DNA of 64,000 bases from Gongronella butleri (taxonomy: Eukaryota; Mucoromycota; Mucoromycetes; Mucorales; Cunninghamellaceae). The notes below the pieces were generated by a model, which saw only the letters and a program-made list of their open reading frames with translations, was not told the origin of the DNA and made no database searches. The position numbers and the translations under genes were made by a program. Positions 21,784 through 46,145 of this stretch are shown here, piece after piece; position 1 is the stretch's first letter, and every line of letters starts with the position of its first letter. The stretch spans positions 205,616 through 269,615 of the forward strand of contig JAIWZP010000042.1 of NCBI GenBank assembly GCA_025201375.1, given 5' to 3'.

Positions 21784-23327
21784 ATGTCGGCCAACACCGC
21801 TCAATATGACTTGACGATGCGCATGATCCCCTACTTGGATCGCCATCTCATCTACTTTTTGCTTCGCTTCCTGGAGATCAAGGAGGTAAAAAGACAGAAA
21901 AAAAGCAAATGACGCTCTTTACTGACTTTTTTTGTTTTTTGGCTTAGGTGTACGCCACCGAGGACCTTGTCAAGGCCCAATACGACCTGTTTGTCAACAC
22001 CAACATGGTCGACTTTATCATCGAGTCATACAAGAACATCAACCAGACGGACGATGTGCCCAAGGAGTTTGACGACAAGCGCGAGCAAGTGCTTGCCCAA
22101 TTGGGTGATATGGAAGCCAAGGCCCAAAAGGTCATGTCTGTCTTGGAGAAGCCCGAATTGGTTGCTGCCCTCCGTCAGGACAATGGTCAAAACCTCGAGG
22201 ACCTGAAGAAGCAATATAACGTATGATCCCCTTTTTTTTTGCAATTAGCATCGTCAATGCAAGTCCAATGGCTGATTTTTTTTGCCCTTTTTTTTTTTTT
22301 TTTTTTGTTATAGATCACCGAGGAGATGATCGACGTGCTCTACGAATTTGGTCAATTGCAATACAGCTGTGGCCGCTACGGGGGTGCCGCCGACATGCTT
22401 TATCACTTCCGCATCTTGGTACGAACGCGCTCTCATTTGCCGCCCTATGGCCCATCCATGCCTTGTGGACTCACTCCTCATTTCTCTTTTTTTTTAATCT
22501 AGTCGAGCGACCAAGAACGATGCCTGTCTGCCTCTTGGGGCAAGATGGTGTGCGAGATCTGGGAAGGTTCCTGGGACGCTGCCCTCGAGGAGATCCAAAA
22601 CTTGCGCGAGGTCATTGACCAAAAGAACTTTGCGTCGCCTCTGCAGCAATTGCAGCAGCGTACGTGGCTGATCCACTGGTCGCTCTTTGTCTTTTTCAAC
22701 CACCCCAAGGGCCGTGATGGCATTGTCGACATGTTCTTTGCCCCTGCGTACTTGAACACCATCCAGACCACGTGCCCCTGGATCCTGCGCTATCTGGCGA
22801 CCGCCGTCGTCATCAATCGCCGCCGCAAGACCCAGATGAAGGAGCTTGTCAAGATCATCGAGCAAGAAACCTACGAATACCGCGACCCTGTCACCGAATT
22901 CATCGAGGCTCTGTTCATCAACTTTGACTTTGAGGGCGCGCAAAAGAAACTCAAGGAGTGCGAGGCCGTGCTGTCGCATGACTTTTTCCTCAATGCCACC
23001 GAGGCCGATTTCATGGAAAATGCGCGCCAATTCATCTCCGAGACCTATTGCCGCATCCACCAAAAGATCGACATCAAGGACATGTGCCAAACCCTCAACT
23101 TGGACCAGGAGGAGGGCGAAAAGTGGATCGTCAACCTGATCCGCGACACCCGCGTGGACGCCAAGATCGATTTCCAGGAAAACACCGTCGTCATGAACAC
23201 CCCCGTCACCTCCGTGTACCAGCAGGTCATCGAGCGCACCAAGGGCCTGTCTTTCCGCTCTCAGGTGCTTGCCAGCAACATCAAGCGACGAGAACAGGCC
23301 GCTCAGCAGGACGTTGCCGCTCAATAG
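21784..23327 (+). CDS. INT6: Translation initiation factor eIF3 subunit e (INT6)
   Basis: Exons 21784-21885, 21948-22220, 22314-22418 and 22503-23327 give 434 residues, the expected eIF3e length. The N terminus [20 protein letters not shown] followed by [12 protein letters not shown] is the conserved eIF3e opening. The body is helical, and the PCI/winged-helix module occupies roughly residues 220-400 (including [20 protein letters not shown] and [12 protein letters not shown]). The protein is a core PCI subunit of eIF3, which binds the 40S subunit and bridges eIF4G and mRNA. Budding yeast lacks it, while most other fungi keep it. AATAAA lies at 23473-23478. Confidence 0.95.
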
Positions 23328-23892
23328 ATCAATTCGCAACATCCCTGTCGTCGCCCCCACTTTTTCTTTCTTTTTTCCTCTTTCACTTATGCATCCTTGC
23401 CATTCCCCTTTTTACCTTGACTAGCAACTTTTTTTTTCTGATACATTTTGTTGTATATATTACGGATTTCTCAATAAAAGCAATCGTCGCTGTTGAACAT
23501 CAATGTTATGATACAAGGCTGCCCGGCGCGAAAATACGTAACGACTTTAGATCTCTATCATATCATACAGTAGTCGACGCGCTCACACCGTCACACGCAC
23601 TATCCACTGGACGCGCTCGGGCTTCACTTTATAGTACCCGACAAACCCTACAGTATACGCGATCTTTGTGCATTTGGGATGATCGATCAAAAAGTTCAAG
23701 CGTGATTTGCACGGCAACGGGCTAGATAACCCACCAGGCAAGGGCGCAAGGCCCTGCTGTGAAAAAAGACGCACGCAGAATCACATTCTTTCTCGCAGGG
23801 AGGAGCCGGTCTTACTGTATGTATCATATATACTGTATGATATGATACCACGGCATGTCTGTGCTCTACAGTATGATACGTACAGTACTGTA
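23328..23892. repeat. Spacer with nested TA-NNN-TA heptamer arrays (left of transposon)
   Basis: From about 23545 the sequence carries runs of TA-flanked trinucleotides: cores TCA, TCA, CAG near 23548-23570; CTG, TCA, CTG, TGA, TGA near 23813-23850; CAG, TGA, CAG, CTG near 23867-23892. The last TA is the left target-site TA of the Tc1 element. Confidence 0.7.
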
Positions 23893-23922
23893 CAGTGCCC
23901 GGACAAAAAAAAGTTTCGCTCT
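23893..23922 (+). repeat. Left terminal inverted repeat of Tc1 element
   Basis: Thirty bases starting CAGTGCCCGG and containing an A8 run, identical to the reverse complement of 25197-25226. Transposase would bind just inside this end. Confidence 0.95.
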
Positions 23923-24071
23923 AACTTTAATTTTTTACGCGTTATTTCTTTTTTACGTGCTTCTCATCGGCAACAGTAACTAGATCTCTCAAAATTCATA
24001 CAATGATCCTTTAATATCATACATACATAATAATTCATACAAAAAAGAGGGCGGGGTTGGGCAACTGGGGA

Positions 24072-25097
24072 TCACCACCGGGTGGGTGTGCCCTTGTTCT
24101 TGATGACTGCCTTCATCCTTCTGGGCATCGACTCGATGAGCCTGTTCCAGTCGTTGGGCTCAAACTCGTTCCAGACCTCCTTTAGAACCTCTCGAAACTC
24201 CCCCAACTCCATTCCCTCGTGAAATCGATCTTGAACGCGCGCCTTCATCTTTTTCCAAAGATTTTCGATTGGATTGAGGTCCGGTGAGCTCGCGGGCCAA
24301 TCCATCTTCTTAATCTTCTTTTTAGCAATCCATTGCTTAGACACGTTTGCACGGTGGATCATCGCGCCATCTTCCATGAGTATGATGGTCCTTTTGCGCC
24401 CAAAAAACTTCTTCAAAGGTCCCTCATACACGACACGCACGTAGTCTTCCGCAGTCGACCTTGTGCTGCGGTCATTGGGCCCGTGTTTCTCGAATAGCGC
24501 GAGCTCCGTCTTTTTTCCATGCTGGATACCACCCCAAACCATTTGCGACGTGCGCCCGCTCTTAAACGTGGGGGCAAGAGAGTCCTGGTGGTCTGCTTCG
24601 TTAGCTGTGCGCCAGACACGGACGCGGCGAGAGTTCTTGCCGATTTCGAACGAGGACTCATCGGTAAATAGCACTTTTTTCCACTCGTCTACCGTCCACT
24701 TTGCGTGTCTCCTAGCAAAAGCAAGTCGCTTTGCCGCCTGTGCAGTCGAAACGAAGGGTTTTCTCTTGGCAATACGCGAGTGTATGCCCATTTCATGCAG
24801 ACGACGTCGAATGGTACGACTCGACACACTCATGTCAGACATGTCGCGAATCTGGTCAAGTGTTGCACGTCGCTCGTTGACTACAAGGCGTCGCAAGCGT
24901 CGCAGGTCCGCGTCTGAGAGCTTTTGTGGGCGCCCTGACCCCTCTTGGCGAGCGTAGTGGCCTCGTTCTGTACATCGCCTAACTGTAGATCTAACAGATT
25001 GTTCAGACACGCCGAATTGGCGAGCCAATTCCGCAGTCGTACAACCGTTGTTTCGAAGTGCAACGAGTTGTGCCTTTTGCGTCGTTGAGAGGACCAT
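24072..25097 (-). CDS. Tc1-type DD34E transposase
   Basis: Intronless, 341 residues from MVLSTTQK; an in-frame upstream non-ATG extension is poly-Phe and unlikely. The N terminus is a bipartite DNA-binding region: helix-turn-helix one at about residues 10-45 (TTAELARQFGVSEQSVRSTV), a GRPQ AT-hook-like linker near 55-58, and helix-turn-helix two at about 62-108. The catalytic triad is Asp146 (LFTDESSF), Asp243 (LMEDGAMIH) and Glu278 (DLNPIENLW). Exactly 34 residues separate the second Asp and the Glu, the Tc1 signature. No stop or frameshift is present. The enzyme cuts and pastes the element at TA dinucleotides. Confidence 0.96.
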   Translation of the reverse strand: MVLSTTQKAQLVALRNNGCTTAELARQFGVSEQSVRSTVRRCTERGHYARQEGSGRPQKLSDADLRRLRRLVVNERRATLDQIRDMSDMSVSSRTIRRRLHEMGIHSRIAKRKPFVSTAQAAKRLAFARRHAKWTVDEWKKVLFTDESSFEIGKNSRRVRVWRTANEADHQDSLAPTFKSGRTSQMVWGGIQHGKKTELALFEKHGPNDRSTRSTAEDYVRVVYEGPLKKFFGRKRTIILMEDGAMIHRANVSKQWIAKKKIKKMDWPASSPDLNPIENLWKKMKARVQDRFHEGMELGEFREVLKEVWNEFEPNDWNRLIESMPRRMKAVIKNKGTPTRW

Positions 25098-25196
25098 ATT
25101 TTCACAAAAAAAAAAAAAAGAAAAGACCCAGCGAGCGACACCTGGCACCCAGTTTTATAGATTTGAGCAAATGGCTGCGGACACTGAAAATTATGC

Positions 25197-25226
25197 AGAG
25201 CGAAACTTTTTTTTGTCCGGGCACTG
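25197..25226 (-). repeat. Right terminal inverted repeat of Tc1 element
   Basis: Thirty bases ending GGGCACTG, a perfect inverted match to the left end. It is followed by the target TA and then by further CAG and TCA heptamers (25227-25255). Confidence 0.95.
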
Positions 25227-25228
25227 TA

Positions 25229-25829
25229 CAGTAGGTACATACAGTATCATATCATAAAAATGGTGGAGAAATCAAAGTTCTTATCGTAAATTTCGACTTT
25301 GATCGCTTTTTCCTTGGAAACCGCTTGATCGACTTCTGATTTTATTGCATATTTGCATACCGGTACTGTAGATACAGTGGAGGGAGTCGACCGCGCGCGT
25401 GCTCTCCTTCTGATACTGTACCGACATGCCTGCACACTCGTTCGTCTCGTAAAAGGCAAGGCTGGCTGACTCAATCTAAAGCCGATGCATGTCGATCGCG
25501 TGCTCGCGTCGCATCGCATCCCCGCGACCCCGCCTCCTGCCTGTACTACCGGTATGTACCATACGGTACGTATGATACAGTAGTACCCTAATTTTTTGTT
25601 GTTCGAGATTCGACATTCGAGCGAGACGAGCAAGATTTTACAGAACATTCATTCTTGTCGTCGATCGAGACGAGCGAGATCCAGGTCGTCTTCTCGATCG
25701 TCTTCTCGAACTCTCGATCTCCCCTAATCTCGTCTCGAACCCTCGAGATTTTCGACGACGAGCGAGATTCTCGATTTATCATAACATCCCTACCTACCGG
25801 TATATGATTCCAAAATCTTGAAATTTCCA
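25229..25829. other. Spacer right of transposon
   Basis: Contains several TACAGTA/TACTGTA sites, three TACCGGTA palindromes (near 25360, 25549 and 25796) and a low-complexity stretch rich in CGAG/CTCG and GACGAG words at 25615-25770. No gene is supported. Confidence 0.5.
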
Positions 25830-26937
25830 CAAATCCTGTACGATCTCTCAAAATATTTTGTGAATCGCAGTGAAAACGGCACCGATTGAAAGAGACGCAT
25901 TCGCTGTCGTATTCAGATCGGTTGCTCGCCGAATGGACGAGCGTTGCACGCTTGCAAAAGTCGATCAAACATTGGATTAATTTTCAAAATCCATTTTCTC
26001 GACAACTGCTGGAAAAACAACGGATGGTGCTTTTAACGTGTCGAATGCAGCTGCTGAATAATCTTCGTCGGATGAACAAGTTTCTTCGCGACCGGATCAA
26101 AACTGACGGAGAAAACAGCTTTTTGGAGCATTTTTCTGCAATCGCCATTTGCTCGAGAATGGTCTAGCCAGCTCCTGATTTTTAGTAAAGATTTACTTGA
26201 AACCAGGGGGCAAAGCTTCTAATGGGATGACTTGCAGCGCGCATGCTTGGGTTTGAAAATTTCGCATCGGTCATTTTTTCACCAGGCAGCAGCAGCAGCA
26301 GCACAAAAATGTGCAAAATAAAATAAATAAAAAAATAAAAAAAATAAAAAATTCCATGCAATCCACGCACGTTAATTTGGAAGTCTCAAACCTTAAATTT
26401 TGCAAAAAAAATCTTGCCCGCAGTAGGCAATTTTCTCAGTGCGATCGCCGTTCATGCGTCACTCTTTGGGCTTTTTTCTTAGTTTGCGGCGACTTGTCAT
26501 TTTGTCTGCCAATGGCAAATTGTCGGAGTTACCTGCTTGGGATGCATTGATCACTCGGAGTTCGAAATTGCCCGTGTTTGGGATTTAATGTGGGACCCCT
26601 GAATTTTTAAAAAGTGGTCGTAGCGCTTTGATGTTTTAAGCTTTCTTGTTGCAAATTTCGCGCTGAATCCGATGCAACCATTTTTGAGCGGGATCGGCAA
26701 AGCAGATGGCGAGTGAAATACAAAATAGGCTAAAATTGGTGTTTTCCGAATTTGTGGGCTCAAAAAAAATCGGGCGCACCCATCCAGCAGACAAGCTGCA
26801 CTTCCTGCAATGACGCATTTTTCATTGGCGGGCGGGTAGGCTGTAAAAAAATTTCTGGAGGCACAACAGGTCATCAAAGTCCCATAATCACGCATTATTG
26901 TCGTTTTCTAAAGGCAAGCGTGTCCTTTCTTTTGAGC
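25830..26937. repeat. Dispersed A repeat, copy 2
   Basis: Aligns by eye through most of its length with copies 1 and 3, same orientation. Shared landmarks include CTCTCAAAATATTTTGTG near 25851, the CTAATGGGATGACTTGCAGC block at 26220, ATTCCATGCAATCCACGCAC near 26350 and GGCTGTAAAAAAATTTCTGG near 26839. It carries fewer heptamers than copy 3, so it serves as the unscarred reference at several sites. Confidence 0.8.
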
Positions 26938-26938
26938 G

Positions 26939-27300
26939 TATGATATGATACTGTATGATACTGTATGATACTGCATCAATCATAGTACAGTATGATAGCG
27001 CGCTGCTGCGAGCATTATTGCTTGAAATAACAGAAGAATGCGCCAAGCTCTACTTCTGTATGTTCCTCCATTCGTCCATTGCGATTACTGTAAAATGCAC
27101 CAGCGGTCAGGCACATTACTGTACTGTATTTGTGGTGTACAGTATCGTATGATATGATACTTCGTACAACAGTACGTATCATAGACATTGATCCTTTTTT
27201 ACAATAGTTCTTCTTCTTCTTCTATTATATCATACAGTATCATACTTACCGGTAGACGTCGCAGCGCCTCGCAATACTGTATGATAGGTACGTATCATCT
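26939..27300. repeat. Nested 5-base-period TA-NNN arrays
   Basis: From 26939 seven consecutive TA+3 units follow with cores TGA, TGA, CTG, TGA, CTG, TGA, CTG (26939-26973). Further arrays with cores CAG, TCG, TGA, TGA lie near 27136-27160, and TCA, CAG, TCA followed by a TACCGGTA palindrome near 27222-27250. Confidence 0.75.
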
Positions 27301-28404
27301 CCTCAAAGCAAGCGACAGAATTAAAGTACGTACTTGCAGCAGCAAGAGAAGCATTCCGTTCTGCACAGGCCATAAGAAGGTGGGAGGAGATTACTGTATT
27401 GTCTTGTGAAAATCAGAAAATGGCATGCCGCATGCAAAATGCAAAAAATGCCTTAATTTTTTTTATCATACTATCACAAGTGGTTCGTTTTTCTCTTTGA
27501 GATCATGATAAAATGGAGTGAAATTCAGCGCATGCATGTGTAGTGCTCGGTGGTCGGTGCTCGCAGGCGTCGTCGTTCAGAATCCAGCCGCGAGCTAGGC
27601 GATCTTTTTTTTTTTTTTTTTTTTTTTTTTGTGGGTGGCCTTGGCGTCGATTGACGCGTATTCATGGTCACAATGGGATCTTGCATGTGATTTTCCGACG
27701 GCTTCCATTTAATATTGTGTTCCACGTGTATCAAAAGGAGAGGTCCATGCGTGTTGGCCATTTGTTTTCTTGGAAGTGACAAGATTTCGCTGGCTGTGGC
27801 CGAGAGGCCGACCGTCCGGCTCGGAGTGAGTGGCGGGGTCATCGTTGATAAAGAGCAGAGCATTAAGCGGATGCAATATACGCGGCTGATCAGGCTGCCC
27901 AGACAATGGCTCCAGCAAGCTTCCTTTTTGGGTGGCGACGATCGCGACTTTTGCATGTGATGAGCCTCGCCATGATAGGTGCTGCTGGGTTGAAATGGAT
28001 AATTGACACCCGCCGCCTTCCATGTTGTTCCCCCTGGATCCGCAGAATCAAAAAAAAAAAAAAGAGACAGGGGAGGCATGGCACCATCATCGATGCACGA
28101 TGCTGGACATTATGCAAGCTTCTGCGCTAATCCAATGGTCCATGCCAAAAGAGACTTGTCCGCTTTGATTTTTCATATGATTGCTGCATGGTCCGTTCCA
28201 TCCCAGTGTGGCGGCCGCATGGGCAAAAGCATTTTGAGTTTGGGCCCAAAACGGGAACTGAGCCGATTTGTCCTTTTCTGCTTACAATTTTTTTCACCCA
28301 TCATTGCTTCATCCTCTCGTCCTCTCTATTCCCTGGCCCACCTCTCACGGGTTGCGTAGCACTTTTCTTTCGCTTTTGCAATTTTTTTTATCATATTAAT
28401 CATC
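27301..28404. other. Intergenic, no supported gene
   Basis: Contains a run of 26 T at 27605-27630. GC-richer sequence at 27540-28110 has open frames, but none shows a recognisable domain or codon pattern. Bases 28255-28400 are the pyrimidine-rich promoter of the methyltransferase. Confidence 0.45.
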
Positions 28405-43989: not shown

Positions 43990-44575
43990 ACATTGTAAAA
44001 CTTTCAATGCGGTCTCACCAAAAAACAAGCGCTTTCACCGCGTTTGATCACAGATTCATTTGAGATGACTCGTGCGTCGATGTCGCCCACGCCACCAAAC
44101 ATCATACGGAAAATCAGGGCAAAACGACCCCTGATTGCTATTCTATCTCGCGGAGATCTTACAGTATGATAACGCAATGTCTCCAAAACAGAAGCGTATT
44201 TACTGTACCACCGCCATGGCTGATGATTCATTTGAGATGGACTACAGTAGTGCGTCGGTAAGTTGGGCCGTTGTCGCGTATGCTACCGAAATGGACAAAA
44301 CCTTAACCCCATTTCGCTGGGTGTGTCCTCTGGATTTTGTTCGTCCGGTCCTAAATTTGAACAAGAGCACGATGCACATAAAGCTCCAACAATGTCAAGA
44401 TTTTGCAAAGATCGGATCACTCAGTCCTGAGGATATGTATTTTCATAAAATCAGGCCCAATCGGCCAAACCAGGATCAAAACGACCCCTCAACAAGGCCA
44501 ACTCGCCGAAAACTTGAAGCGATATCCCCAAACCACAAGAGCTTTTACCGCGTTTGACTACATATGTAAAAACCA
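43990..44575. repeat. B repeat, second locus
   Basis: Carries two or three diverged B units, recognised by CAAGCGCTTT.ACCGCGTTTG-type phrases near 44027 and 44540, TTCATTTGAGATG near 44055 and 44228, and ATCGGATCACTCAGTC near 44412. Three TA-NNN-TA heptamers (44160-44166, 44201-44207, 44243-44249) interrupt places where the 8.4 and 8.9 kb units are continuous. Confidence 0.7.
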
Positions 44576-44579
44576 TATT

Positions 44580-46145
44580 ATCATATGCCAGCAAGCCGAG
44601 CTGTCGACAGTTTTGAAAACTTGTCTTTTTTTCATCAAAATCTTTGATCGCGATTATATACTGTATTTTACGAAACCTTGGGGTAACCCCGATATTTATT
44701 GCTAAGTTTTCACGGCACAGACTTCAAGTTTACACCATCTACTGTACGCAAAGTAGGTTTTTGAGTTGAGTTGTGAAGCCTTTTTTTTGTGTCTCCATCG
44801 ATCCCTTCACGTTGTATCATTCATTGTATGTTTATAATATTGGCCTTTAAGTCCATGTTCCAAAACTGACGAGAGGCAGCGGTGGCCCAGCAAAATCTAC
44901 ACATAATTAAATGTGTTACAGTACCGACGCGATGCTTTTTGAAAAACCGTTCAAACCAGGAGTCGACCGAGTCATTGTGCAGATGAATCCAAAAATCTGA
45001 CATTTCTTCCACAAATCCGACACGAGTCTCTCAAAATATTTTGTGGAACGCGGTGAAATGGCACCGATTAAAAGAGACGCACTCGGGTGTATTTCCTGAT
45101 TGTTTGCTTGCCCGATGGATGAACATTGCCCGCTTGCAAAAGTCGATCAAACATTGGGTCAATTTTCAAACTTGCTTTTCTCGACAACTGGAAAAATACA
45201 GTAACTAACGATGCTTTTAACGTGTCAAATGCTGCTGCTGAATCTCCACCGAATGAAACAAGTTTCACGGCAATCTGATCAAAACTGGCTGAGGAAATAC
45301 ACTTTTTCAACAAAAAAATTCAATGACGATTTGCTCGACAACTATCTAGTCAACCCTCGATTTTTATTTCAGATTTAATAAAAAACAGGGAGGCAAAGCA
45401 TCTAATGGGATGACTTGCAGGGCGCTAGCTTGGGGTTTAACTTTTTGTATCGGTTATTTCACTAAATATACAGTAGGCTGCAGCCCACGCAACGCACAAA
45501 AAATGCATGCAAAATACAGTACTGTACCGTACTGTAAAAAAAAAAAATAAAAATTCCATGCAATCCACACACCTTAATTTGGAAGTGTCAAACGTTAAAT
45601 TTTTGCAAAAAAAATCGTGCCCAAAGTAAGCACTTTTCTCAGTCGATCACCGTTCATGCGTCACTCTTTGAGCTTTTTTTCATACTGTATATAGCTTGGG
45701 GCGGCCTGTCATTTTGTCTGTCAATAGCAAATTGTCGGAGTTACCTATTTCGGATGCAATGGTCGCTCGGAGTTCAAAATTGCCCGCTTTTGGGATTTAA
45801 ATGTGTGACCCCTGAATTTTTCAAAAGTGGTCGTAGCGCTTTGGGGGTTTAAGCTTTTTTGTTGCAAATTATGCGCTGAACACGATGCGACTATTTTTGA
45901 GAGGGGCTGACCATGCAGATGGCAACGTGAATGCAAAATAGTAAAAATATCATAGGAGGTTTTTGGCATTTTCTTGTCCAAAAAAAATCGGGCGGATCCG
46001 TCTTGTTGAGCACTGGGCTGTAGTTTACGCCGTGACGCACCTTTCATTTGCGGGCAAGTATGATAGGCTGTAAAAAAATTTCTGGAGGCACAACAAGCTG
46101 CGGAAAAATCGCAAAAAGCATTTTCCAAAGCAAGCACCTGTTTTT
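44580..46145. repeat. Dispersed A repeat, copy 3
   Basis: Follows the B units directly, the same B-then-A order as at the window start. It aligns by eye with copies 1 and 2 and is the most heavily scarred, with more than ten TA-NNN-TA heptamers, including a nested set at 45515-45536. Confidence 0.8.

Follow-up and report, generated by a model that had tools for sequence, protein, structure and literature searches.

Five-base gains at TA in the genome of Gongronella butleri as very probable excision footprints of Tc1-type transposons

The heptamers TA-CWG-TA, TA-TSA-TA, and TA-CSG-TA in the genome of the mucoralean fungus Gongronella butleri are very probably excision footprints of Tc1-type cut-and-paste elements. 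We arrived at this reading by comparing repeat copies and transposon ends, with a 64,000-nucleotide stretch of one contig (the window) at the center of the analysis. A preliminary description of the window had interpreted such heptamers as Tc1 excision scars, and that interpretation is supported by insertions of five bases at a TA, by cores that form complementary pairs, and by CWG and CCG triplets that also terminate Tc1-like elements of this genome. Excision footprints are well known from single assays. How much they contribute to indel evolution over long times is difficult to quantify, since scars fade, and a multicopy repeat provides dozens of sister copies in which scars can be compared.

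Enrichment of the heptamers in the window and the genome

The window lies in a contig of 269,615 bases, and the genome comprises 33.0 Mb in 110 contigs. The open reading frame (ORF) at 22545-23327 encodes part of eIF3e and is 100% identical to a G. butleri protein. Gene-like stretches alternate with AT-richer islands, and two repeats, A and B, sit in the islands. An Rfam search and a tRNA scan of the window gave no match and no tRNA, no Pfam family was found for five ORFs located within or close to the islands (including the A ORFs tested), and no related loci were found in viral contigs.

There are 176 TA-NNN-TA heptamers in the window, the most frequent cores being CAG (26), CTG (22), TCA (19), TGA (18), AAA (10), and TTT (9). 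Compared with dinucleotide shuffles, TACWGTA was found 48 times against 1.28 expected and TATSATA 37 times against 2.14 expected; TACSGTA, at 5 against 1.24, was weakly enriched, a count of 5 being reached by 1 of 100 shuffles. In the whole genome, TACAGTA occurs 16,213 times on both strands and the same-composition control TAGACTA 554 times, and TATGATA occurs 9,529 times against 1,031 for its letter-reversed control, which has no TA flanks; these figures count heptamers, not events, and include inherited copies and element ends.

Within the window, 83 of the 90 units with one of the three core pairs (CAG/CTG, TCA/TGA, and CCG/CGG) fell inside 17.4 kb of islands and 7 in the remaining 46.6 kb, a contrast that is descriptive only because the island borders were drawn by eye after the heptamer histogram had been viewed. 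Five islands were drawn in this way, of which two were nearly empty of units (0 and 3) and the densest (23330-28000) held 47. Some units are nested in chains that mix different cores. On the forward strand, four units (CAG, CTG, CCG, and CTG) form a chain at 45515-45536, and six (TGA, TGA, CTG, TGA, CTG, and TGA) form another at 26939-26970, part of which was called a 10-base tandem repeat by a repeat finder.

Five-base gains at TA among copies of the A repeat

A probe for the A repeat had at least 43 genome matches, and because scoring covered 40 of 1,202 candidates, A may have further copies. We fetched 41 copies and aligned 40 of them, all longer than 650 nt; one copy (L031, 572 nt) was excluded for its length, and a match at C41:1481-2747 lay outside the fetched set. 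Three copies are in the window, all on the forward strand: copy 1 (221-1393) has 5 footprint units, copy 2 (25804-26868) has 0, and copy 3 (44881-46117) has 10, the highest number among the 40 copies compared. The alignment showed 7.1% mismatch to the consensus, with 450 insertions and 258 deletions.

Among the five-base insertions in these 40 copies, 43 of 55 had the form TA|NNN|TA and 12 did not fit, in agreement with the earlier proposal that indels at these heptamers are predominantly gains of five bases at a TA. This form would arise about 0.6% of the time from five-mers drawn and placed at random. The cores were CAG (16), CTG (14), TCA (4), TGA (4), CCG (4), and CGG (1), with none other; equal enrichment of random cores was not seen, and three complementary core pairs made up the entire set in A. 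The nominal P value of 8e-85 is overstated, because shared footprints may be inherited or gene converted and the 43 insertions are not 43 independent events. They were located at 19 TA sites in at least 28 site-core combinations. Nineteen of these combinations were found in a single copy, and therefore the insertion is the derived state there.

The pattern was maintained under four gap-cost settings, in which 35 to 43 of 50 to 55 A insertions fit TA|NNN|TA, and when the three window copies were removed, in which case 38 of 47 still fit (first gap-cost setting). Collapsing TA-core-TA to TA for the three core pairs removed 99 units and raised the summed alignment score of the 40 copies by 394.5. 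As a control, the same was done for twelve other core pairs with 28 units in total; six of these pairs lost score, one gained 2.5 (1 unit), and five were without units. Repeats other than A gave a similar result: in the 252 of 399 pairwise alignments that we kept (at least 100 columns and 72 to 98.5% identity, covering 26,411 bases), 18 of 24 five-base insertions fit, with CAG/CTG in 14, TCA/TGA in 2, CCG/CGG in 1, and CGA/TCG in 1. In addition, a foldback element at L015 has arms that differ from each other by two CTG units. The number of units per A copy was not correlated with divergence (rho -0.15, p 0.36). Scars with deletions escape recognition by the +5 method used here.

It could be argued that the heptamers are ancestral and that the other copies lost five bases. 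At multicopy sites, for example at consensus position 21 (7 copies), the polarity could run either way, but we rejected loss on the distribution of site-core combinations among copies, 19/28 of which are single-copy. Furthermore, several TAs carry different cores across copies, as at consensus position 302, where the core is CAG, CTG, or TCA depending on the copy, and A contains 4 five-base deletions versus 55 five-base insertions. Given these results, loss instead of gain is scarcely credible.

The seven heptamers cited in the preliminary description are all present at their positions, on the forward strand. Four of them are clean five-base gains at a TA compared with the 40-copy consensus: TATGATA at 46059-46065 (in 46055-46070), which is common to copy L014; TACAGTA at 45197-45203, whose TA has a CTG or TCA core in other A copies; TATCATA at 45948-45954, whose TA has a CAG or CCG core in other A copies; and TACAGTA at 633-639 in copy 1. 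The remaining three are more complex than had been proposed. TACTGTA at 45683-45689 sits within a larger compound insertion and is not a clean +5, and, in the B-type repeat, TACTGTA at 44201-44207 aligns as +8, readable as +5 plus a three-base duplication of ACC, while TACAGTA at 44243-44249 aligns as +6, readable as +5 plus one base. Qualification is also needed for two of the original partner-copy comparisons, in that the TA itself is absent in copy 2 (the 45197 site) and in copy 1 (the 45948 site). Because the partner has no TA, those two pairs alone are no proof; it is the many-copy alignment that proves the +5.

Tc1-like elements whose ends match two of the core pairs

The window contains an intact Tc1-like element, which we assigned to family 1. 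Including its outermost CTG-TA units, it extends from 23888 to 25231 and is flanked by TA at 23886-23887 and 25232-25233; all 10 of the other family-1 insertions that were fetched are likewise bordered by TA on each side. Its left terminal inverted repeat (23888-23922, forward strand) is a 100% match to the right one (25197-25231, reverse strand), and, with the TA included, the arms are 37 nt long and 100% identical. An intact ORF of 358 amino acids (24072-25148, reverse strand) encodes a DD34E Tc1-type transposase with HTH_Tnp_Tc3_2 and DDE_3 domains (PF01498, 8.7e-16, and PF13358, 7.1e-16). Its triad is D163, D260, and E295 (P0001 numbering, motif based), with 34 residues separating the last two, and its best solved relative is Sleeping Beauty.

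Family 1 has nine transposases in the genome that are 99 to 100% identical. The family-1 end TACAGTGCCCGGAC has 65 + 65 exact genome matches, one set per strand, and among the matches listed, the two ends were about 1 kb apart in 38 of 44 readable pairs and about 1.3 kb apart in 6 of 44. Three of the 1-kb copies were fetched; they are foldback elements with 98.4 to 99.7% identity, and their perfect inverted arms measure 103 to 364 bases. Because the nine transposases are 99 to 100% identical and the nonautonomous copies up to 99.7% identical, family-1 activity looks recent on sequence grounds. Thus, the word "fossil," which the preliminary description applied to the footprints, is half right.

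Two further families were found. Family 2 has eleven open copies with 27 to 29% identity to family 1, ends in TA-CCGTGGCTC (TA-CCGTGGC), and has a terminal inverted repeat of more than 200 bases. Family 3 (L055 and L056) has 48 to 50% identity to family 1 and ends in TA-CWG-TA-CCGTACCCTAC. Ends with CWG predict CAG and CTG footprints, and ends with CCG predict CCG and CGG footprints. Both are as observed, the CAG/CTG cores matching the C(A/T)G ends of families 1 and 3 and the CCG/CGG cores matching the CCG end of family 2. In the fetched sequence that we searched, we found no element with TCA or TGA at its ends. PF01359 had 0 matches in the genome, and the same search gave none in control genomes either; PF03184 had 3 matches in the genome.

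These ends bear on a different account, which treats TACAGTA as a motif, such as a binding site or a mobile micro-repeat, that was amplified or selected and is unrelated to transposon exit. Such a motif might well cluster in islands and form chains and a 10-base tandem array, as the units do, but it would not account for insertions that are +5 at TA, often single-copy, and built on complementary core pairs. Collapsing other cores did not improve the alignment, and two core pairs equal element ends. This match of cores to ends largely refutes the motif account, and we assign it a negligible probability.

Other element-like stretches were noted. Elements with long inverted arms lie at L032 348-798, L015 4178-4900, L026 1491-2629, and L078-L080, and the interiors of those at L015 and L026 are alike by eye. 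L052, L053, and L054 represent DDE_3 families in which short direct repeats lie next to the transposase and terminal inverted repeats were not recognized; two copies of this type (C5 and C15) lie less than 2 kb from a contig end. A diverged Tc1-like stretch at L082 5-993 has near-matching ends, each beginning TACACTTTTGTCACTTTC.

A proposed model for the formation of the probable footprints

In the excision reading, the transposase would put an element into a TA, and the TA would be duplicated. On exit, nicks three bases inside each end would give the donor flanks 3-nt overhangs, which would anneal except for the middle base and be joined. The mismatch could be repaired either way, and the product would be a TA, three bases of the element end, and a second TA, a net gain of five bases. 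The ends of families 1 and 3 would give the C(A/T)G cores and those of family 2 the CCG core, and the TCA and TGA cores may, by analogy, derive from a family that has died out or was not found. The present load, which within the window is mostly in intergenic islands, would have built up over many cycles of insertion and excision, and a single TA could be struck repeatedly, by different cores too.

Excision events and their repair are what we infer here, not what we saw, because no TCA- or TGA-ended element and no filled scarred A site were found. The preliminary description had pointed to sister loci with an element at the same TA. One B-repeat site is indeed filled beside unfilled sisters; among the fetched A copies, no element was found at a TA scarred in a sister. 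No site showed the empty, filled, and footprint states together in the A copies or at the filled B-repeat site.

Scar words far outnumber elements, with 16,213 TACAGTA heptamers versus about 65 remaining family-1 elements. This imbalance, together with the fact that none of the fetched A copies has a filled site, would also be expected from abortive transposition, in which the transposase opens and rejoins the TA with end-derived bases and a full element was never present at most sites. However, frequent excision would itself leave few elements at scarred TAs, and the filled B-repeat site does exist beside its unfilled sisters. To our knowledge, no abortive reaction of this kind has been described for Tc1-type transposases, which counts against it, and we consider it very improbable.

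If the heptamers are excision footprints, their excess over elements (thousands versus tens) makes insertion and excision turnover testable across Mucorales strains. The core triplet would identify the departed element, so that past activity could be tallied separately for each type of element, including one that is no longer found.

CWG units outside the canonical Tc1-type end

A TA-NNN-TA unit lies directly outside CAGTGCCCGGAC at 117 of 130 family-1 ends, and 13 of 130 are without a unit. The outer triplets of the 100 ends listed were CTG (50), CAG (45), CGG (4), and CCG (1), all of them CNG. Of 14 matches to family-3 ends, in which the inner triplet is CCG, 13 read TA-CWG-TA-CCGTACCC and 1 reads TGCTGTA, under a pattern that demanded a T five bases out and left ends without such a T uncounted. 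An outer CNG unit was present in 0 of 4 family-2 ends. At L072/L073, a family-1 element is inserted within a B repeat with one unit per side. The four aligned sister stretches have no unit, two having a single TA and two having TG; this filled-site comparison consists of one site versus four sister stretches, as four alignments at three other sites were too poor.

The units adjoining family-1 elements could be external to them if the elements preferentially insert at the TA shared by two tandem footprints. About 90% of landings at such targets would put most units in long chains, and, although chains are common in the fetched sequence (81 of 483 runs of units), 402 of 483 runs are single, as are 85 of 90 in A. 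The near equality of A and T at the middle base (50 CTG and 45 CAG of 100 listed) and the 13 of 130 ends without a unit are on the side of external units; against them, a TCA or TGA unit was found at none of the 100 listed ends, the diverged family 3 shares the outer CWG, and no units were found in the four sister stretches aligned to the one filled site. We rejected this target preference by the mass balance of single runs and kept it as a rival, unlikely as it is. Because single-unit runs dominate and a double-footprint target is unlikely, we regard CWG as the genuine end triplet of families 1 and 3, with the extra CWG-TA lying outside the canonical Tc1 end.

The middle base of this terminal triplet is unusually variable and differs from copy to copy much more often than other positions do. 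Between two family-1 copies with 1,018 aligned bases, 2 of 3 differences are at its middle base, and among the matches listed, 26 of 39 copies have the same triplet at both ends when these are read on one strand (p 0.053). One conceivable, if doubtful, explanation is that every jump renews the triplet: the overhangs of the excised element would pair, either in a circle or in an intermediate with paired ends, and would then undergo the kind of repair that forms the donor scar. If this is true, element and scar would carry the same wobble, and sequence comparison could be used to read the reaction. A simpler account of the variability would be that the long inverted arms (103 to 364 perfect bases) recombine with each other.

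Comparison with known systems

The closest parallel is Sleeping Beauty. Its published footprints are TACAGTA and TACTGTA (PMC4378557), and it nicks three bases inside its ends, the 3-nt overhangs giving rise to footprints via nonhomologous end joining (PMC7827188). The footprint of TA plus C(A/T)G plus TA, with its gain of five bases (PMC4378557), is thus like that found here, where the DD34E transposase is related. Unlike Sleeping Beauty, Gongronella shows natural, genome-wide accumulation in a 33-Mb genome and has three core pairs, and families 1 and 3 carry the extra CWG-TA outside a CAGTGCC-type end.

With Tc1 of Caenorhabditis elegans and fungal Tc1-like elements, the present families share a TA target, terminal inverted repeats, and a single-ORF DDE transposase with a Tc3-type helix-turn-helix. 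The inner end CAGTGCCCGG also resembles the Tc1 end. The C. elegans Tc1 footprint is longer than a three-base core, and the elements described here differ from Tc1 in their three-base core and extended termini.

Excision scars are a genome-wide source of small indels in rice as well (PMC4423477 and PMC5023962). In that system, 8 of 94 excisions were perfect and the others had a deletion or filler (PMC4423477). In contrast, the clean +5 form is common in Gongronella, where deletion-bearing scars are invisible to our method. Among the titles and abstract openings of the best-matching literature, we found no report of footprint-saturated repeats in Mucorales, which does not prove their absence.

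Other insertion classes in the A repeat

Insertions of three bases in A were exact tandem duplications in 78 of 120 cases, compared with 7 of 48 for two-base and 12 of 54 for four-base insertions, and the three-base excess was also seen under other gap costs (72 to 81 of 120 to 131). Outside A, the excess was weaker, with exact tandem duplications in 32 of 54 three-base, 16 of 41 two-base, and 4 of 30 four-base insertions. The three-base duplications in A had no clear motif and represented 66 distinct site-unit combinations. They were rarer in more diverged copies (rho -0.50), perhaps because of poorer alignment. A coding explanation for the three-base insertions was rejected: deletions show no multiple-of-three bias, and the A ORFs tested have no Pfam family. 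CACTA elements duplicate a 3-bp target. Because of this duplication length and because CACTA transposases are present in the genome (9 PF02992 matches, 8 above the cutoff), clean CACTA excision is a lead, and the three-base duplications are possibly its footprints.

Four of the 54 four-base insertions were TA-CG-TA (A consensus positions 463, 524, 662, and 926; copies L026, L051, L032, and L020), and these are perhaps a two-base footprint of another family. Finally, the A copy that was excluded from the alignment, L031, contains an insertion of about half a kilobase that starts with TG, ends with CA, and has ATTTC on both sides, resembling a solo LTR.
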